From contig NZ_JABMKV010000003.1 of NCBI RefSeq assembly GCF_013204825.1, forward strand, positions 186,001 to 250,000: a DNA stretch of 64,000 nt, given 5' to 3'. Every line of letters starts with the position of its first letter. Positions within the stretch are counted from its first letter, which is position 1. Positions 15,816 through 48,792 of the stretch are shown here, one piece after another. Both the position numbers and the translations under genes were made by a program. The DNA is from Pedobacter boryungensis. Its GTDB lineage: Bacteria > Bacteroidota > Bacteroidia > Sphingobacteriales > Sphingobacteriaceae. Below the pieces are notes generated by a model, which saw only the letters and a list, made by a program, of their open reading frames with translations, did no database searches and was not told the DNA's origin.

Positions 15816-15875
15816 TAATTCGGTAAACATTGCAATTATTTGGAATTGATAATGCTTTGTTGCATTTTTGTAGTG

Positions 15876-15975
15876 CTTATTAAGAAAGACGGAGGGACTA
15901 GACCCAACGAAGTCTTAGCAACCTGTGCCAACAAGGTGCTAATTTCTAATCTCAGCAGTGGCGAGAGAAGATAAG
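15876..15975 (+). ncRNA. SAM-I (S-box) riboswitch upstream of metH
   Basis: The aptamer core is visible: GGAGGGACTAGACCC (15891-15905), GCAACC (15918-15923) and AAGGTGCTAATTTC (15933-15946), followed by GAGAGAAGATAAG. CTTAT at 15876-15880 can pair with ATAAG at 15971-15975 to close helix P1. This is the S-box layout, sensing S-adenosylmethionine. It lies 135 nt upstream of metH, exactly where methionine synthesis should be controlled. A small hairpin (AGAATA 15981-15986 with TATTCT 15990-15995) follows and may be part of the expression platform. No strong terminator is seen, so control may be translational or weakly transcriptional. Confidence 0.9.
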
Positions 15976-16019
15976 TTTAAAGAATAATCTATTCTGACTT
16001 TTGAATAAGCCAATAATAG

Positions 16020-21308: not shown

Positions 21309-22622
21309 TTATTGATCTCCCATTAACAAATATTCCTTAAACCCTTCAAAATCCTTACCCAATTCACTATACAGTTCTACCTTGTTTTTTAAGGTTTCTA
21401 CTTGCGCTGGCAACTCGATTTTAGATTGCATTTCTGCTGAAAAAACTTCAGGAAATTTACATGCATGAGCAGTGGATAAAAACACTTTAACACCTTTATC
21501 TGTAGGATTTTTTTCAGCATAAGCTTTAGTTGCTAGATAAGCAATTGCGGTATGCGGACAGGCAATGTAGTTGAATTTATCAAAGATCTCTTTTATACCT
21601 GCTAAGGTTTCCTCGTCTGTAAAACGATAGGCTTTTACTAATTCTTGAATCACTTTTCTATCGGTATTAAACAAATCCATGATGCGTACCCAATTACTTG
21701 GCGCACCGACATCCATGGCGTTGGCATAAGTTTGTACAGATGGTTTAGTTTCATAAATTCCACTCTCTAAAAAGCGTGGAACCGTATCATTTGCATTAGT
21801 TGCTGCAATAAACTGATGCACTGGTAAACCCATTTTATAGGCTAATAATCCTGCACCTATGTTTCCGAAATTTCCACTAGGCACCGAAAAAACCACCTCT
21901 TTAAATCCTTTTCTTTTCAATTGCGCATACGCATTGAAATAATAAAAAGTCTGCGGAATTAGTCTTGCTATATTAATTGAATTAGCAGAAGTTAATCGGA
22001 ACTTAGCCTTCAACTCCTCATCTGCAAAAGCTTGTTTCACTAAGGCCTGGCAATCATCAAAAGTTCCATCAATTGCAATTGCCCTAACGTTTTTGCCATT
22101 AGTGGTAAGTTGCAAACGTTGCACTTCGCTTACCTTTCCCTTCGGAAACAGAATAGTAACCCTAGTATTAGGCACACCTAAAAAGCCCAAAGCAACTGCT
22201 CCGCCAGTATCACCTGAAGTAGCCACTAAAACATCTAATAACAATTCGCCATCTTTTAAGAAATAAGCCATTACTCTACTCATAAATCGAGCACCAAAAT
22301 CTTTAAAAGCTAAAGAAGGGCCATGAAACAATTCGAGCACAAATGTATCTTCATCCAATTTGACAAGAGGTGCATCAAAATTTACGGCATCTTCTACTAA
22401 AGCTTTCAAATCAGCGGTAGGAATTTCATCTTTCAACAAGGTTGATGCGATTTGATACGCAATTTCTGGCAAGGAATATTTCTCGATGTGATCGAGAAAT
22501 TCTTTTTCTAATTGAGGAATGTTCAAGGGCATGTATAGGCCTTTATCTAGTGGCATGCTATTAAAAACTGCCTCTTGAAAGGAAACACGTAAATCTTTAT
22601 TGTTGGTTGAGTATAGTTTCAT
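21309..22622 (-). CDS. thrC: Threonine synthase
   Basis: PLP enzyme converting O-phosphohomoserine to threonine. The 437-residue protein carries the PLP lysine Lys107 in HGPSLAFKDFGARFM, the phosphate-binding segment VATSGDTGGAVALGF and SVPSGNFGNIGAGLLA. Its N-terminus (MKLYSTNNKDLRVSFQEAVF) matches the class that includes E. coli ThrC. It lies last in thrA-thrB-thrC, 25 nt after thrB. Regulation is via the attenuator upstream of thrA. Confidence 0.96.
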   Translation of the reverse strand: MKLYSTNNKDLRVSFQEAVFNSMPLDKGLYMPLNIPQLEKEFLDHIEKYSLPEIAYQIASTLLKDEIPTADLKALVEDAVNFDAPLVKLDEDTFVLELFHGPSLAFKDFGARFMSRVMAYFLKDGELLLDVLVATSGDTGGAVALGFLGVPNTRVTILFPKGKVSEVQRLQLTTNGKNVRAIAIDGTFDDCQALVKQAFADEELKAKFRLTSANSINIARLIPQTFYYFNAYAQLKRKGFKEVVFSVPSGNFGNIGAGLLAYKMGLPVHQFIAATNANDTVPRFLESGIYETKPSVQTYANAMDVGAPSNWVRIMDLFNTDRKVIQELVKAYRFTDEETLAGIKEIFDKFNYIACPHTAIAYLATKAYAEKNPTDKGVKVFLSTAHACKFPEVFSAEMQSKIELPAQVETLKNKVELYSELGKDFEGFKEYLLMGDQ

Positions 22623-22647: not shown

Positions 22648-23577
22648 TTATATTGCTCTTGGTCCCTCAGCATTTACTGAAGAAACATAAGCGTTACTAT
22701 TGATATTTAATTTTGTTAAATGTTTTTGTTGGGCAGTTGTTATTTTCCTAGCGGTTGTTTCATCTTTGGCTAATGCAAAAACAGACGGACCAGAGCCTGA
22801 AATCCCGAAACCTACAGCTCCATTTTCCATAGCAAGTGCTCTCAAAGTTTCGAACCCTGGAATTAGGATAGAGCGAGTTGGTTCTATCAAAACATCCTTC
22901 ATACTTCTACCTACCAGATCGATATCGTTTAAGAACAAGCCACTCACCAAACCAGCCACATTTCCCCATTGCGTAACCGCATCTTTCAATAAAACTTTAG
23001 CACGTATCATTTGTCGAGCATCTTTAGTAGGCACTTCCACTTCTGGATAAACAATGGCCGCGAATAAGTCCTTGGGTGTTGGCAAAGCAATTAAATCCAA
23101 TGGTTCATAGCTGCGAACCAAAACAAAACCACCTATTAATGCTGGTGCCACATTATCTGCATGACCATAGCCACAAGCCAGTTCCTCACCCTTCATTGCG
23201 AATGGAACCAATTCTTTTGCGGTCAGCGAGTTGCCCATTAGCTGATTAATAGCATATAAACCCGCAACCGTACTTGCCGAACTAGAACCTAATCCGCTAC
23301 CTATTGGCATCTTTTTATGTAGTTCAATTTCTACCCCAATATCTTCTCTATTTAAGTGTCTTAGATAATGTTGTACACTTGCACTCACCGTATTTTTTGC
23401 AGAATCTAATGGTAAACGGCCATCATCTCCTGTAATTTTCAATAAACGAACACCAGGTTCATCAACCAAGCGCATCACTACTTCATCTCCAGGTTCATTC
23501 ACAGCAAACCCTAGAACATCAAATCCACAAACTACGTTGGCAACAGTGGCAGGAGCGAAAACTTTTATTTCTTTCAT
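22648..23577 (-). CDS. thrB: Homoserine kinase
   Basis: GHMP-family kinase phosphorylating L-homoserine with ATP. In 309 residues it has the start MKEIKVFAPATVANVVCGFD, the ATP loop MPIGSGLGSSSASTVAGL and the C-terminal GHMP motif VGFGISGSGPSVFALAKD. It starts 2 nt after the thrA stop codon, which is consistent with coupled translation in the operon. Confidence 0.95.
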   Translation of the reverse strand: MKEIKVFAPATVANVVCGFDVLGFAVNEPGDEVVMRLVDEPGVRLLKITGDDGRLPLDSAKNTVSASVQHYLRHLNREDIGVEIELHKKMPIGSGLGSSSASTVAGLYAINQLMGNSLTAKELVPFAMKGEELACGYGHADNVAPALIGGFVLVRSYEPLDLIALPTPKDLFAAIVYPEVEVPTKDARQMIRAKVLLKDAVTQWGNVAGLVSGLFLNDIDLVGRSMKDVLIEPTRSILIPGFETLRALAMENGAVGFGISGSGPSVFALAKDETTARKITTAQQKHLTKLNINSNAYVSSVNAEGPRAI

Positions 23578-23579
23578 AT

Positions 23580-26039
23580 TTATGCTTTTTCGCCTCCTAC
23601 ATTTATAATATCGGCAAACACTCCTGCAGCAGTAACCTCTGCGCCAGCACCTGGCCCTTTTACCACTAACGGACGTTCTTTATATCGATCTGTAGTGAAA
23701 GAAATAATATTATCACTTCCCGAGAGCATATAAAATGGATGGTTTTCATCTACCATTTGTAAAGTGATCGATGCTTTACCATCTTCCAATTTCCCTATAT
23801 ATCTAAGCACTTTTTTGCTCGCCTCTGCTTCTTGCTTCAGCTTAGTGAAATAAGCTGCATTCAGTTCTAATTGATGATAAAACTCTTCCACAGTTGGAGC
23901 TTGTAAGCAAGCATCTGGCAACATATTCTGAATACTCACATCAGATTCTTCGAAAGCATAACCAGCATCGCGGGCAAGAATCAACATCTTACGCATAAAG
24001 TCTTTCCCATTCAAATCATCTCTTGGATCTGGCTCTGTGTAACCCAATTCTTGTGCTTCTTTTACTACATCATGGAAAGCAGCATCACCTTTAAAATGAT
24101 TAAAGATATAAGAGATTGTTCCTGATAAAATCGCTTCAATCCGAGCTATTTTATCCCCGCTCATCATTAAATCTTTTAAAGTTCTAATAATTGGTAAACC
24201 TGCACCCACATTCGTTTCATAATAAAAGTCGACGCCAAATTTGCGAGCTGTATTTTTAAACATTTCATACTGCGCAAAACTGGCCGAATTCCCAATTTTA
24301 TTACAGGTAACCACAGAAATACTTGACTCGAAAATACCTTGGTAAAAAGGTACCGGTTGCGGACTTGCCGTATTATCTACAAATACACAGTTTGGTAAGT
24401 TCATGGCTTTCATTTTTGCAACAAACTCTTCCAAATTAGCACTTTCCCCTCCTGTATTAAGTGTTTCTTCCCAGTTTTCTAAAGCAATGCCATTGGGCGA
24501 TAAAAGCATTTTTCGGGTGTTACTAATCCCCATTATTTTTACTTGCAAATCATTATTTTTAGCCAAGAAAGGCATTTGAACCTGTAACTGTTTAAATAAT
24601 GTTTTACTAATATTGCCAGTTCCCAAACAGAAAACATGCAGTGTTTTATTCAATGAAGTATAAAAAGCATCATGTACTGCATTTACCGCTTTAGATAAAT
24701 CTGCTTTTGCAATAATTACCGAGATGTTATATTCTGATGATCCTTGTGCAATAGCATGAACATTCACTCCGTTTCTACCCAATGCATGAAACAATTTGCC
24801 CGAAATACCAGGTGTGTGTTTCATGTTTTCACCCACAATAGCTAAAACTGCTAAACCATTTTCTACTTCTGGTTGCTCTAGTTTTTTGGCTTGTAATTCT
24901 AAATCGAATTCCTTAGAAATCAGTTTTACGGCCTTAATCGCATCAGACGGTTTTACCGCGAAAGTAATACTATGTTCTGAAGATGATTGAGTAATTAGCA
25001 CCACATTAATTTGCTCTCGAGATAGCAATGAAAATAATCTTCCACTAAAACCAGCTTTACCCACCATTCCGCTTCCAGCCAAGTTTACAATACTTATTTC
25101 ATCTATAGAAGAGATACCCTTTATAGGCAAAGCCGATGCTTTTGCGCCATGACGAATGTAAGTTCCTTCAAAAGCTACATCAAATGTATTTTTAATAACA
25201 ATAGGAATTTGCTTTAAAAAAGCAGGCGTCATAGTAGGTGGATAAATAACTTTTGCACCAAAATAAGACAGCTCCATGGCTTCAATATAACTTAATTCTG
25301 GTAATGAAAATGCTTTCTTCACTATACGTGGATCGGCAGTCATCATTCCATTTACATCAGTCCAAATTTGTATTTCATTGGCATTTAAAGCCGATCCTAA
25401 AATCGCTGCAGTATAATCGCTACCGCCCCTACCCAACGTAGTCACACGATTAGCATCATTACTAGCAATAAAACCAGTTACAAAAAGCATTTTACCTGCA
25501 TTGCTTTGGTAAAAATCTTTAACCAAAAAATCAGTTAATTGCGTGTCTACTTTAGCCTGCCCAAAATTGCTATCAGTTTTAATAAATTGAGTTGCATCTG
25601 CAAAAACTGCTTCAGAGAATTTCTGCTTTGCAATATGGCTAATCATTAAAGTCGAGCAGCGCTCACCGTAACTTAGTACCAAATCTTTTGCCTGTAAACT
25701 TATCTCTTGCAAGTTATAAATGGCTTGCAGTAATTCTTCCAATTCGTTAAAGTACAATTTCAACTTCGTTAAAACTGGGTTTTGAGCAGCAGCAGGCAGT
25801 AATGCCCTAATCACATCAAAATGTCTTTGTTCTATTAACTTTAACTCTTCGCTGTAATCTTGTCCCAAAGCAGCTTTTTCTGCCATTGCTGTAAGCAAAT
25901 TAGTAACGCCACTCATTGCCGATAAAACCACTATTGGTTTTTCCTGTTGTTGATTTTCCTTTGTTAAGATGTTCAATAAAGCACTAATGCTTTCTACTGA
26001 ACCTACTGAAGTACCGCCAAATTTTAAAATGTTCATCAT
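23580..26039 (-). CDS. thrA: Bifunctional aspartokinase/homoserine dehydrogenase
   Basis: Catalyses the first step (aspartate to aspartyl phosphate) and the third step (semialdehyde to homoserine) of the threonine branch. The N-terminal aspartokinase has NILKFGGTSVGS and GRGGSDYTAAILG. Two ACT regulatory domains follow at about 315-460 (SIVNLAGSGMVGKAG and VLAIVGENMKHTPG). The C-terminal homoserine dehydrogenase (about 465-815) has VFCLGTGNISKTLFKQL and YYETNVGAGLPIIRTL. At 819 residues it is full length. Two adjacent ATGs (26039 and 26036) are possible starts. The start lies just past an intrinsic terminator, which makes it the controlled gene of the attenuator. Confidence 0.96.
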   Translation of the reverse strand: MMNILKFGGTSVGSVESISALLNILTKENQQQEKPIVVLSAMSGVTNLLTAMAEKAALGQDYSEELKLIEQRHFDVIRALLPAAAQNPVLTKLKLYFNELEELLQAIYNLQEISLQAKDLVLSYGERCSTLMISHIAKQKFSEAVFADATQFIKTDSNFGQAKVDTQLTDFLVKDFYQSNAGKMLFVTGFIASNDANRVTTLGRGGSDYTAAILGSALNANEIQIWTDVNGMMTADPRIVKKAFSLPELSYIEAMELSYFGAKVIYPPTMTPAFLKQIPIVIKNTFDVAFEGTYIRHGAKASALPIKGISSIDEISIVNLAGSGMVGKAGFSGRLFSLLSREQINVVLITQSSSEHSITFAVKPSDAIKAVKLISKEFDLELQAKKLEQPEVENGLAVLAIVGENMKHTPGISGKLFHALGRNGVNVHAIAQGSSEYNISVIIAKADLSKAVNAVHDAFYTSLNKTLHVFCLGTGNISKTLFKQLQVQMPFLAKNNDLQVKIMGISNTRKMLLSPNGIALENWEETLNTGGESANLEEFVAKMKAMNLPNCVFVDNTASPQPVPFYQGIFESSISVVTCNKIGNSASFAQYEMFKNTARKFGVDFYYETNVGAGLPIIRTLKDLMMSGDKIARIEAILSGTISYIFNHFKGDAAFHDVVKEAQELGYTEPDPRDDLNGKDFMRKMLILARDAGYAFEESDVSIQNMLPDACLQAPTVEEFYHQLELNAAYFTKLKQEAEASKKVLRYIGKLEDGKASITLQMVDENHPFYMLSGSDNIISFTTDRYKERPLVVKGPGAGAEVTAAGVFADIINVGGEKA

Positions 26040-26045
26040 AATGGG

Positions 26046-26084
26046 TTAAAAAAAAAGCGCTCCCGATTTTCTCGGGAGCGCTTT
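26046..26084 (-). terminator. thr attenuator (intrinsic terminator before thrA)
   Basis: On the minus strand, a perfect 13-bp stem (arms 26072-26084 and 26054-26066, core GCGCTCCCGA) with a 5-nt loop is followed by a run of T residues ending about 8 nt before the thrA ATG. It is a strong terminator sitting between leader peptide and operon, not at an operon end, so it should act as an attenuator. Confidence 0.92.
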
Positions 26085-26108
26085 ATATGTTGTGTTTCAA
26101 TTATACCA

Positions 26109-26180
26109 CTAGCGTTTCCCCATCAGGCATTGGCCTGTTGTTGATGTAATAATGGTAATAATCGTGTTGTTAAAAATCAT
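26109..26180 (-). CDS. thrL: thr operon leader peptide (23 aa, Thr/Ile-rich)
   Basis: A 23-codon reading frame from ATG at 26180 to TAG at 26109-26111. Residues 4-15 are N-N-T-I-I-T-I-I-T-S-T-T, and the whole peptide has five Thr and five Ile. This mirrors the Thr/Ile-rich thrL of E. coli in composition, but the gene is too short for usual gene finders. It precedes the terminator by 24 nt. A ribosome stalling on uncharged Thr- or Ile-tRNA would leave the terminator unformed and let thrABC be read. After the peptide, AGGC...GCCT (26125-26136) offers a competing short hairpin. I did not work out the antiterminator in full. Confidence 0.85.
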   Translation of the reverse strand: MIFNNTIITIITSTTGQCLMGKR

Positions 26181-26569
26181 TTCTTTTTCTTAGTGTATTT
26201 TCTACACCGCTAAGTAGATAATTATTTTTTACAATGTCAAGAGTTCATCTTAAATAAATTCATTTTTTTATCAAATCTTTTAAAGATTTACGAAATTCAT
26301 AAAAATGCACCCCTTTTTTTATCTTATTTTTAATGAATTTAAAAAAGTACCGCAGTTAAAATCGGAGCGGTTTTGCAATTCTCTTTATTTGCTAAACCTG
26401 ATTGCAACGAAAATCATTTTGAGCTTAATCCTGAGCTTGTGGGAGGAAGCTAAAAAGATTGTAGTGTAAAGCAGGACTTGCTTGAATTGAAATACTGAAA
26501 CTGCTTTTCAAAATACCCATCTCACATTTTCTATCTTACCTCTTTACATTTTATTTACATTTGTGCTTT
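26181..26569. other. Intergenic region between thr leader and rsgA
   Basis: Divergent promoter region without a credible gene. On the thr side there is a TTGACA at about 26233-26238 (minus strand), but no clear -7 box could be fixed. At 26401-26470 the sequence resembles worn dispersed-repeat DNA. The rsgA -7 box is annotated separately. Confidence 0.5.
26556..26563 (+). promoter_or_regulatory. -7 promoter box of rsgA
   Basis: TACATTTG is a perfect TAnnTTTG match. Its last base is 7 nt before the rsgA ATG, so transcription would begin at or within 1-2 nt of the start codon. No TTTG -33 box is obvious. Confidence 0.5.
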
Positions 26570-48444: not shown

Positions 48445-48792
48445 CATACCCATTCGTATTCGAGCAGTAACGACATCAGCAGTCTTTAGACTTCAATAAA
48501 AAAGTATTAGAAAAGCAATTCCTAACACCTATCAATGTTAGTCCCGCTATACACTGCAATCTTTTTGCATAAACATTGTTGGCTAAGTCAAAGCACCTTC
48601 ACCAAAAAGTATTTCCGTTGCTATCAGGTTTAACAAACTTAAAACAATACATTAAGCAAAACACTATACTAACAACTGCGAATTTGTAGCTAGCAAATGC
48701 AAGCTTGTACCTAACAACTGCGAGATCATACAAACTACCTTGGCACGATAATAGCCTAAACTCATGGAGAGAATTTAATTTAAAGATACAAC
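48445..48792. other. Gene-free interval with a 21-bp tandem array
   Basis: The 348-nt stretch between the E1 gene and the lipoprotein gene contains the 21-bp repeat array at 48669-48731 and no credible gene on the plus strand. A 76-codon minus-strand frame (48599-48829) overlaps the array and the next gene and looks spurious. Confidence 0.55.
48669..48731. repeat. Three tandem 21-bp repeats
   Basis: Units at 48669-48689, 48690-48710 and 48711-48731 begin CTAACAACTGCGA, CTAGCAAATGCAA and CTAACAACTGCGA. They share a common frame and differ more in the last eight bases. They end 62 nt before the lipoprotein start. At 21 bp the period is close to two helical turns. Confidence 0.8.

Follow-up and report, generated by a model that had tools for sequence, protein, structure and literature searches.

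Introduction

Candidate attenuators have reportedly also been described in the Bacteroidetes/Chlorobi by Vitreschak et al. 2004 (FEMS Microbiol Lett), with whom priority may lie. The authors of a 2010 study knew of no leader-peptide system beyond the Proteobacteria and Actinobacteria, their own Firmicutes case and the atypical ermC aside (PMC2965389, accessible portion). Clues to leader peptides ahead of amino-acid operons have been given for Flavobacterium psychrophilum, a member of the same phylum as the bacterium considered here, where the conserved structured 5' elements named in the accessible text are those of pheA and hisG, not thr, and neither 'threonine' nor 'thrA' appears in the main text (PMC9723704). 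Putative leader-like sORFs are on record for Bacteroides thetaiotaomicron (PMC7366714, accessible portion), and Bacteroid-trp figures among the candidate cis-regulatory RNAs of Bacteroidetes in a work that tabulates Flavo-1 as well (PMC2864571, accessible portion). For the Sphingobacteriaceae, no description of a thr attenuator was found in the literature searched, including the accessible portion of PMC4833913; most of these searches came back nearly empty, and subscription papers lay largely outside their scope.

The locus set beside these systems here lies in a 64-kb stretch of Pedobacter boryungensis DNA, which is referred to in its entirety as the window. It offers a complete and testable anatomy for amino-acid attenuation in the Sphingobacteriaceae, at a site where no Rfam family reaches threshold and where the encoded peptide is short enough to be easily missed by gene callers. 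Since the start of translation in Bacteroidota is generally thought to use little Shine-Dalgarno pairing, a switch coupling ribosome and RNA polymerase in that phylum would test the generality of such coupling.

The leader and its genomic setting

The elements of the locus, in the direction of transcription, are as follows.

26238-26240, minus strand: candidate -33 element TTG, 21 nt before TACTTAGC, following a -33/-7 consensus that we take to be of Bacteroidota type
26209-26216, minus strand: candidate -7 element TACTTAGC, with TACTTTAC at the equivalent site in many relatives
26109-26180, minus strand: leader ORF of 23 codons, MIFNNTIITIITSTTGQCLMGKR and a stop codon, with the Thr/Ile run in codons 6-15
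26124-26137, minus strand: 1:2-type hairpin CAGGC-CAAT-GCCTG, inside the ORF and right behind the last Thr codon
26111-26121, minus strand: region 2, GGGGAAACGCT, 5' strand of the antiterminator at the end of the ORF, pairing with AGCG-C-UCCC of region 3 and covarying with it
26085-26108, minus strand: spacer from stop codon to terminator, paired with the Thr/Ile codons in the ribosome-free fold of the window
26072-26084, minus strand: region 3, AAAGCGCTCCCGA, common to antiterminator and terminator
26048-26066, minus strand: region 4, TCGGGAGCGCTTT with the U-tract, 3' half of an intrinsic terminator read from the sequence, with hairpin and U-tract also in relatives
23580-26039, minus strand: thrA, bifunctional aspartate kinase / homoserine dehydrogenase I (NF006959, PRK09436.1; 1025.3 bits, cutoff 726)
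22648-23577, minus strand: thrB, homoserine kinase (NF002288; 381.2 bits, cutoff 194)
21309-22622, minus strand: thrC, threonine synthase (TIGR00260; 294.9 bits, cutoff 167.1)

The first-pass annotation of this DNA had described a 23-codon ORF at 26109-26180 with five Thr and five Ile codons in a dense block, and a perfect 13-bp GC-rich stem 24 nt past it with a T run just before thrA; both descriptions are confirmed by the sequence. The Thr codons are ACG, ACC, ACA, ACA and ACA, the Ile codons are all ATT, and the block reads TIITIITSTT; Thr is the precursor of Ile. The terminator hairpin (AAAGCGCTCCCGA-GAAAA-TCGGGAGCGCTTT, 26084-26054), which begins 24 nt past the leader stop codon, has eight G-C among its 13 perfect pairs and is backed by a run of nine T (26056-26048) whose first three bases are paired with AAA. 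Short ORFs of 15-40 codons begin at 1582 start codons in the window, counted on both strands and with nested starts; of these, the leader ORF alone contains a 10-codon block with at least nine Thr/Ile codons, the runner-up having eight, and it alone among the 13 short-ORF starts with at least 6/10 Thr/Ile has a strong hairpin with a U-tract behind it. Thirty dinucleotide-shuffled windows yielded no 9-of-10 block, and a mean of 0.17 blocks with at least eight Thr/Ile.

Translation of thrA starts at ATG 26039, and thrA, thrB and thrC follow in that order, all above their NCBIfam equivalog cutoffs; ThrA shares 94% identity with that of Pedobacter planticolens and 93% with that of P. cryotolerans. 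Since the nearest gene upstream, rsgA (26561 onwards, plus strand), is transcribed away from the hairpin, the latter is assigned to the thr leader and not to rsgA. The candidate promoter elements place a probable transcription start near 26205. The pattern TTG, 17-23 nt, TAnnTT is present in 63 of the 75 aligned leaders described below, with a 21-nt spacing in 14 of the 15 matches listed; the 12 leaders that miss it include the window, which has TACTTA, and four near relatives. Known RNA families were also seen elsewhere in the window: a SAM riboswitch (RF00162, 65.5 bits) at 15874-15977 on the plus strand, and Flavo-1 RNA (RF01705) at 26390-26482 on the plus strand (60.3 bits) and at 48536-48635 on the minus strand (49.9 bits). 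The former Flavo-1 match sits between thrA and rsgA, and two relatives (L072 and L058) have weak, sub-threshold Flavo-1 matches near thrA too.

Conservation among Sphingobacteriaceae

The family search took in 301 genomes, 281 of them with a ThrA match at the chosen cutoff; the region upstream of thrA was examined in 108 of the 301. Conservation of the Thr/Ile codons in aligned relatives, which the first-pass annotation had put forward as a check, was found throughout: a Thr/Ile leader precedes thrA in all 103 examined genomes whose ThrA is at least 64% identical (70/70 with the own genome included, 8/8 and 25/25 in three sets), a count obtained with scripts that choose the ORF richest in Thr/Ile and so favour finding one. 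A hairpin with a U-tract was detected by script in 94 of these 103 genomes (66/70, 7/8 and, with a slightly looser U-tract cutoff, 21/25), and several of the nine misses show visible imperfect hairpins. Loss of the run or the stem in close relatives would, according to the same annotation, have spoken against an attenuator; the run is lost in none of the 103, and the nine genomes missed by the script are the part of the evidence that points the other way. Among 80 named loci, which overlap with the 103 genomes and are not additional to them, three had too little upstream sequence and were left out, and the remainder gave a leader in 77/77 and a hairpin in 72/77.

The remaining five family genomes, with ThrA 46-49% identical, are without the Pedobacter-type layout. 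These belong to two genera with divergent ThrA: genus g5 (L319-L321, 3/3 examined) has a different Thr/Ile leader layout, and in genus g8 (L317-L318, 2/2 examined) no Thr/Ile leader was found. Variation also occurs among the leaders of the Pedobacter type. Small deletions shorten the peptide to 16 codons in L049, and in the five genomes examined of genus g18 the stop codon precedes the purine-rich region 2; these leaders fit a ribosome that covers region 2, but less simply. Outside the family, the leader of L084 (ThrA 59% identical) is altered: it reads MTTIMSIMGDVQSWR, has Met codons within its run, and its hairpin lacks a U-tract.

Terminator and antiterminator

For structural comparison, 75 leaders were aligned with MAFFT. 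Four of the original 79 (L055, L064, L082 and L084) were left out because the script found no terminator in them, although a hairpin is visible by eye in all four, imperfect or (in L084) without a U-tract. With no structure supplied, RNAalifold predicted the antiterminator from this alignment: six pairs join the ORF end to the 5' arm of the terminator, and three inner pairs join UGG/UGU to CCA/ACA before region 3, with 95.1% of the cells of this inner helix paired. Overall, 93.6% of 673 cells are paired, 132 cells are altered on both sides, and seven of the nine pairs show double changes. The covariation score is 0.482, compared with a shuffled mean of 0.215 (0/500 as high) and at most 0.154 with a slid partner, scores taken from an alignment that was not fitted to the structure, yet from which the structure was predicted, and inflated by kinship among the rows. 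Covariation of the stem had been suggested as a check by the first-pass annotation, and it is the antiterminator that covaries; RNAalifold predicted no terminator stem on the 75-row alignment, nor from the terminator columns alone. The terminator arms are split by MAFFT between two principal registers (45 rows and 26 rows), for which reason terminator covariation was not counted and terminator stems were judged sequence by sequence instead of by alignment.

Exchange of arms between leaders gave a further measure of the antiterminator. The mean energy of the region 2:3 duplex is -15.5 kcal/mol with cognate arms, -10.6 with arms of other classes and -12.4 with all foreign arms, and the cognate arm is best in 4/4 arm classes, one of them by a margin of just 0.01; the difference is mainly one between the CCTTCC arm class (35 rows) and the others, and among the remaining three classes it is small. 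The antiterminator that the first-pass annotation expected from folding the leader is therefore present, covaries, and pairs best with its cognate arms. In the window, the 2:3 duplex by itself gains only modestly over base shuffles (z -1.09). Antiterminator and terminator share region 3 and are mutually exclusive folds, and in the full-length RNA the antiterminator is by far the less stable of the two, which makes the switch dependent on kinetics.

Two further helices involve the run and its surroundings. The hairpin directly behind the run has undergone a compensatory change to CAGGT-AAAT-ACCTG in L006 and L007 and beats base shuffles by more than 1 kcal/mol in 51 of 75 rows. A helix between the Thr/Ile codons and the post-stop spacer, termed the protector helix, is present in the ribosome-free fold of the window, with a cognate energy of -11.4 against a non-cognate -9.7 and a median z of -2.6 (below -2 in 47/75 rows); RNAalifold run on the 75 rows without the region 3 and 4 columns predicted no structure. 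The protector helix is retained only as a possible extra element of the leader.

The strong 13-bp stem with its U-tract would also be expected of a constitutive terminator that lowers thrABC expression with fixed efficiency and no regulation. Such a terminator leaves both the conserved Thr/Ile leader and the covarying antiterminator unexplained, and we regard it as extremely unlikely compared with a ribosome-mediated attenuator.

Coding constraint on the Thr/Ile run

In the 75-row alignment, the codon columns of the run (positions 61-82 of the first row) are 88-100% Thr or Ile. Within these codons, the first base is nearly fixed as A, the second is C or T in almost every case, and the third is variable. 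Thr and Ile have been exchanged by several base changes in close relatives (e.g., TIITIITSTT in the window, TIITTTTSTT in L006, and TITTTTTSTT in L008). This codon periodicity supports translation of the leader ORF, as judged from the alignment. Outside the run, the peptide is kept within clades (e.g., TTGINQRG), and its C-terminal part is very different from clade to clade, changing together with the antiterminator that it encodes.

These patterns bear on two other explanations. If the terminator were regulated by a metabolite, an uncharged tRNA or an RNA-binding protein and the ORF were incidental, a terminator with a competing antiterminator would likewise be expected; however, the Thr/Ile codons would not then be strongly constrained in one frame with Thr and Ile interchanging, and no Rfam family, riboswitches and T-boxes included, attains its gathering score on the leader. 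A sensor other than the ribosome is accordingly judged very unlikely. Alternatively, the leader could encode a functional small peptide that works in trans, with the terminator being secondary. There is precedent in peTrpL of Sinorhizobium, a leader peptide with a trans role (PMC7298713, accessible portion), and the sequence kept outside the run within clades would suit such a function, but a C-terminal part that differs between clades together with the antiterminator it encodes, and a run in which Thr and Ile interchange, make this explanation highly improbable. Attenuation by a ribosome translating the leader remains the preferred reading.

Ribosome position and the proposed mechanism

The effect of ribosome position was modelled by setting an assumed ribosome edge and folding the RNA beyond it at a stage when region 4 has yet to be transcribed, a treatment that considers partial transcripts at equilibrium without kinetics. 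The maximum 2:3 pair probability in the window, given by zero-based codon index of the A site, is 0.32 with the ribosome at index 3, ahead of the run, 0.98-1.00 at indices 5-16, 0.62-0.78 at indices 17-18, and 0.00 from index 19 on. The E. coli thrL leader, used as a positive control, gave 1.00 up to index 15, 0.28 at index 16 and at most 0.01 from index 17; it is already at 1.00 at index 3, where the window is at 0.32, and the two are alike over the run. At equilibrium, the antiterminator can form while the ribosome stands on the run, whereas only the terminator is left once the ribosome is near the stop codon.

The locus combines an ORF in codons for the products of the operon, a terminator before the first gene, an exclusive antiterminator and, in equilibrium folding only, a dependence on the position of the ribosome. 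It is very probably a ribosome-mediated transcription attenuator of the thrABC operon, whose action in the cell is a prediction from these features. Initiation at the presumed transcription start site, translation of the leader, stalling, and regulated termination in the cell would then proceed as follows. RNA polymerase would begin near 26205, and a ribosome would translate the 23-codon peptide while the leader is being transcribed. When charged Thr- and Ile-tRNA are ample, the ribosome would reach the stop codon and cover region 2 (26121-26111), allowing hairpin 3:4 (26084-26054) to fold and ending transcription just before thrA. When either Thr- or Ile-tRNA is scarce, the ribosome would stall within codons 6-15, where it could open the small post-run hairpin while region 2 stays free. 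Region 2 would pair with region 3 once the latter is made, no terminator would form, and thrABC would be transcribed.

Leaders of other amino-acid operons

Product-matched leaders also precede the his, ilv and trp operons of the same genome (three operons read in this single genome), and together with the thr leader their sequences suggest that attenuation is routine in this bacterium. The earlier remark that ribosome-mediated attenuation has been only sparsely described in the phylum holds for the literature, but not for the biology, given the his, ilv and trp leaders and the Thr/Ile leaders of other families described below. A pattern search with CCCCTTWGGGGT..CATAT returned one match in each of 6/15 genomes, all within known thrA leader stretches; the pattern is narrow, and variants at other operons could escape it.

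The three leaders differ in detail. At hisG (L285), a His-rich leader, MIQVLNHHVHLHHRHCGDR, has the hairpin TCGCCA-TTG-TGGCGA directly behind its His run. At the ilv operon (L288, reverse strand, about 982-1200 of the reverse complement), the leader contains YVILIAIILLL, and GGGGTCGCT at the end of the ORF is accompanied by a terminator, AAAGCGTCCC...GGGACGCTTTTTTT, in the same layout as the thr attenuator. At trpE (L289), the leader MINNNLHTWQWRDTQKSFVVALCTL is followed by a GC hairpin and T-run.

A second thr leader layout in other families

A survey of 94 thrA loci in other families of Bacteroidota, conducted with a related ORF-picking rule, found a Thr/Ile run near the ORF end at 29, including two that look spurious. 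A GC hairpin is overlapped by the end of the ORF at 22 of the 29, as opposed to 15 among the 332 remaining ORF ends of those regions. In 32 hand-picked loci (e.g., L092, L105, L239, and L250), a GC hairpin was observed right behind the last Thr codon, or nearly so. The hairpins of this second layout (ACCCC/GGGGT, ACGGG/CCCGT, AACCC/GGGTT or similar) touch or straddle the stop codon. By script, none of the 32 hand-picked loci has a further hairpin with U-tract before thrA; the stop-codon hairpin is trailed by a loosely U-rich stretch in 9/32 and has CATAT within 30 nt in 21/32, and may bring about weak intrinsic termination. Both layouts place a short Thr/Ile ORF ahead of thrA and a hairpin immediately after the run, but the second has its hairpin at the stop codon with no further terminator by script, whereas the Pedobacter leader has a separate terminator before thrA. 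This second layout provides a natural comparison for the origin of attenuators.

From the sequences compared, the type of leader seems to follow the lineage of ThrA, genus g5 combining the second layout with a divergent ThrA. In Hymenobacter sp. CRA2 (L211) and Solirubrum puertoriconensis (L217), ThrA is nested among those of the Sphingobacteriaceae, and the leader and terminator are of the Pedobacter type. Their sequences are consistent with a joint transfer of operon and attenuator. A wider reading, tentative and on balance rather unlikely, is that the two Bacteroidota thr layouts track the lineage of ThrA and not the species, and that the ancestral leader was a run with a small stop-codon GC hairpin that usually lacked a U-tract; the chance of weak intrinsic termination at this hairpin makes the reading slightly less probable. 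Such a leader might act without a classical 2:3:4 terminator (e.g., through a hairpin that is covered by a stalled ribosome and otherwise causes pausing or factor-dependent termination), and the Pedobacter type would have added the antiterminator and terminator behind the hairpin, converging on the E. coli design.

Comparison with known systems

Searches with the known families of leader RNAs placed the locus near, but not within, the enteric thr leaders. The window gave a full-length match to the Rfam family Thr_leader (RF00506) at 26.0 bits (E 0.012), below the gathering threshold of 55, and 18 of 20 relatives were listed at E of at most 0.5 with 24.8-48.8 bits, all sub-threshold. Bacteroid-trp (RF01692) has no match to the thr leader even at E up to 10, and none at the trpE locus of the same genome at E up to 0.5, despite the WQW leader there. 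Local nucleotide scores against enteric thrL exceed all 60 shuffles in just 31 of 75 leaders. Of the four thrL alignments listed, two are ACC/ATT repeats, that of the window is a T-tract, and the best (L009) is a gapped terminator region. ThrA is 38% identical to that of E. coli, and the Sphingobacteriaceae proteins fall within Bacteroidota in a quick tree that has E. coli as its sole outsider, on a very long branch. A common origin with enteric thrL is not claimed, because the similarity is mostly of low complexity and ThrA groups with Bacteroidota in this quick tree; both convergence and ancient descent are therefore possible.

The first-pass annotation had likened the arrangement to the E. 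coli thr attenuator, and leader conservation, the antiterminator and ribosome-position folding all support the likeness. The two have in common a leader peptide with a Thr/Ile run, an antiterminator at the end of the ORF and a terminator before thrA, and differ in the sequences of their arms, nucleotide similarity being confined mostly to low-complexity stretches. On the folding model, the window leader would work like the enteric thr attenuator, yet it stands outside RF00506 by the score criterion of that family. The probable thr attenuator of Pedobacter is new as a member, but not new as a kind.
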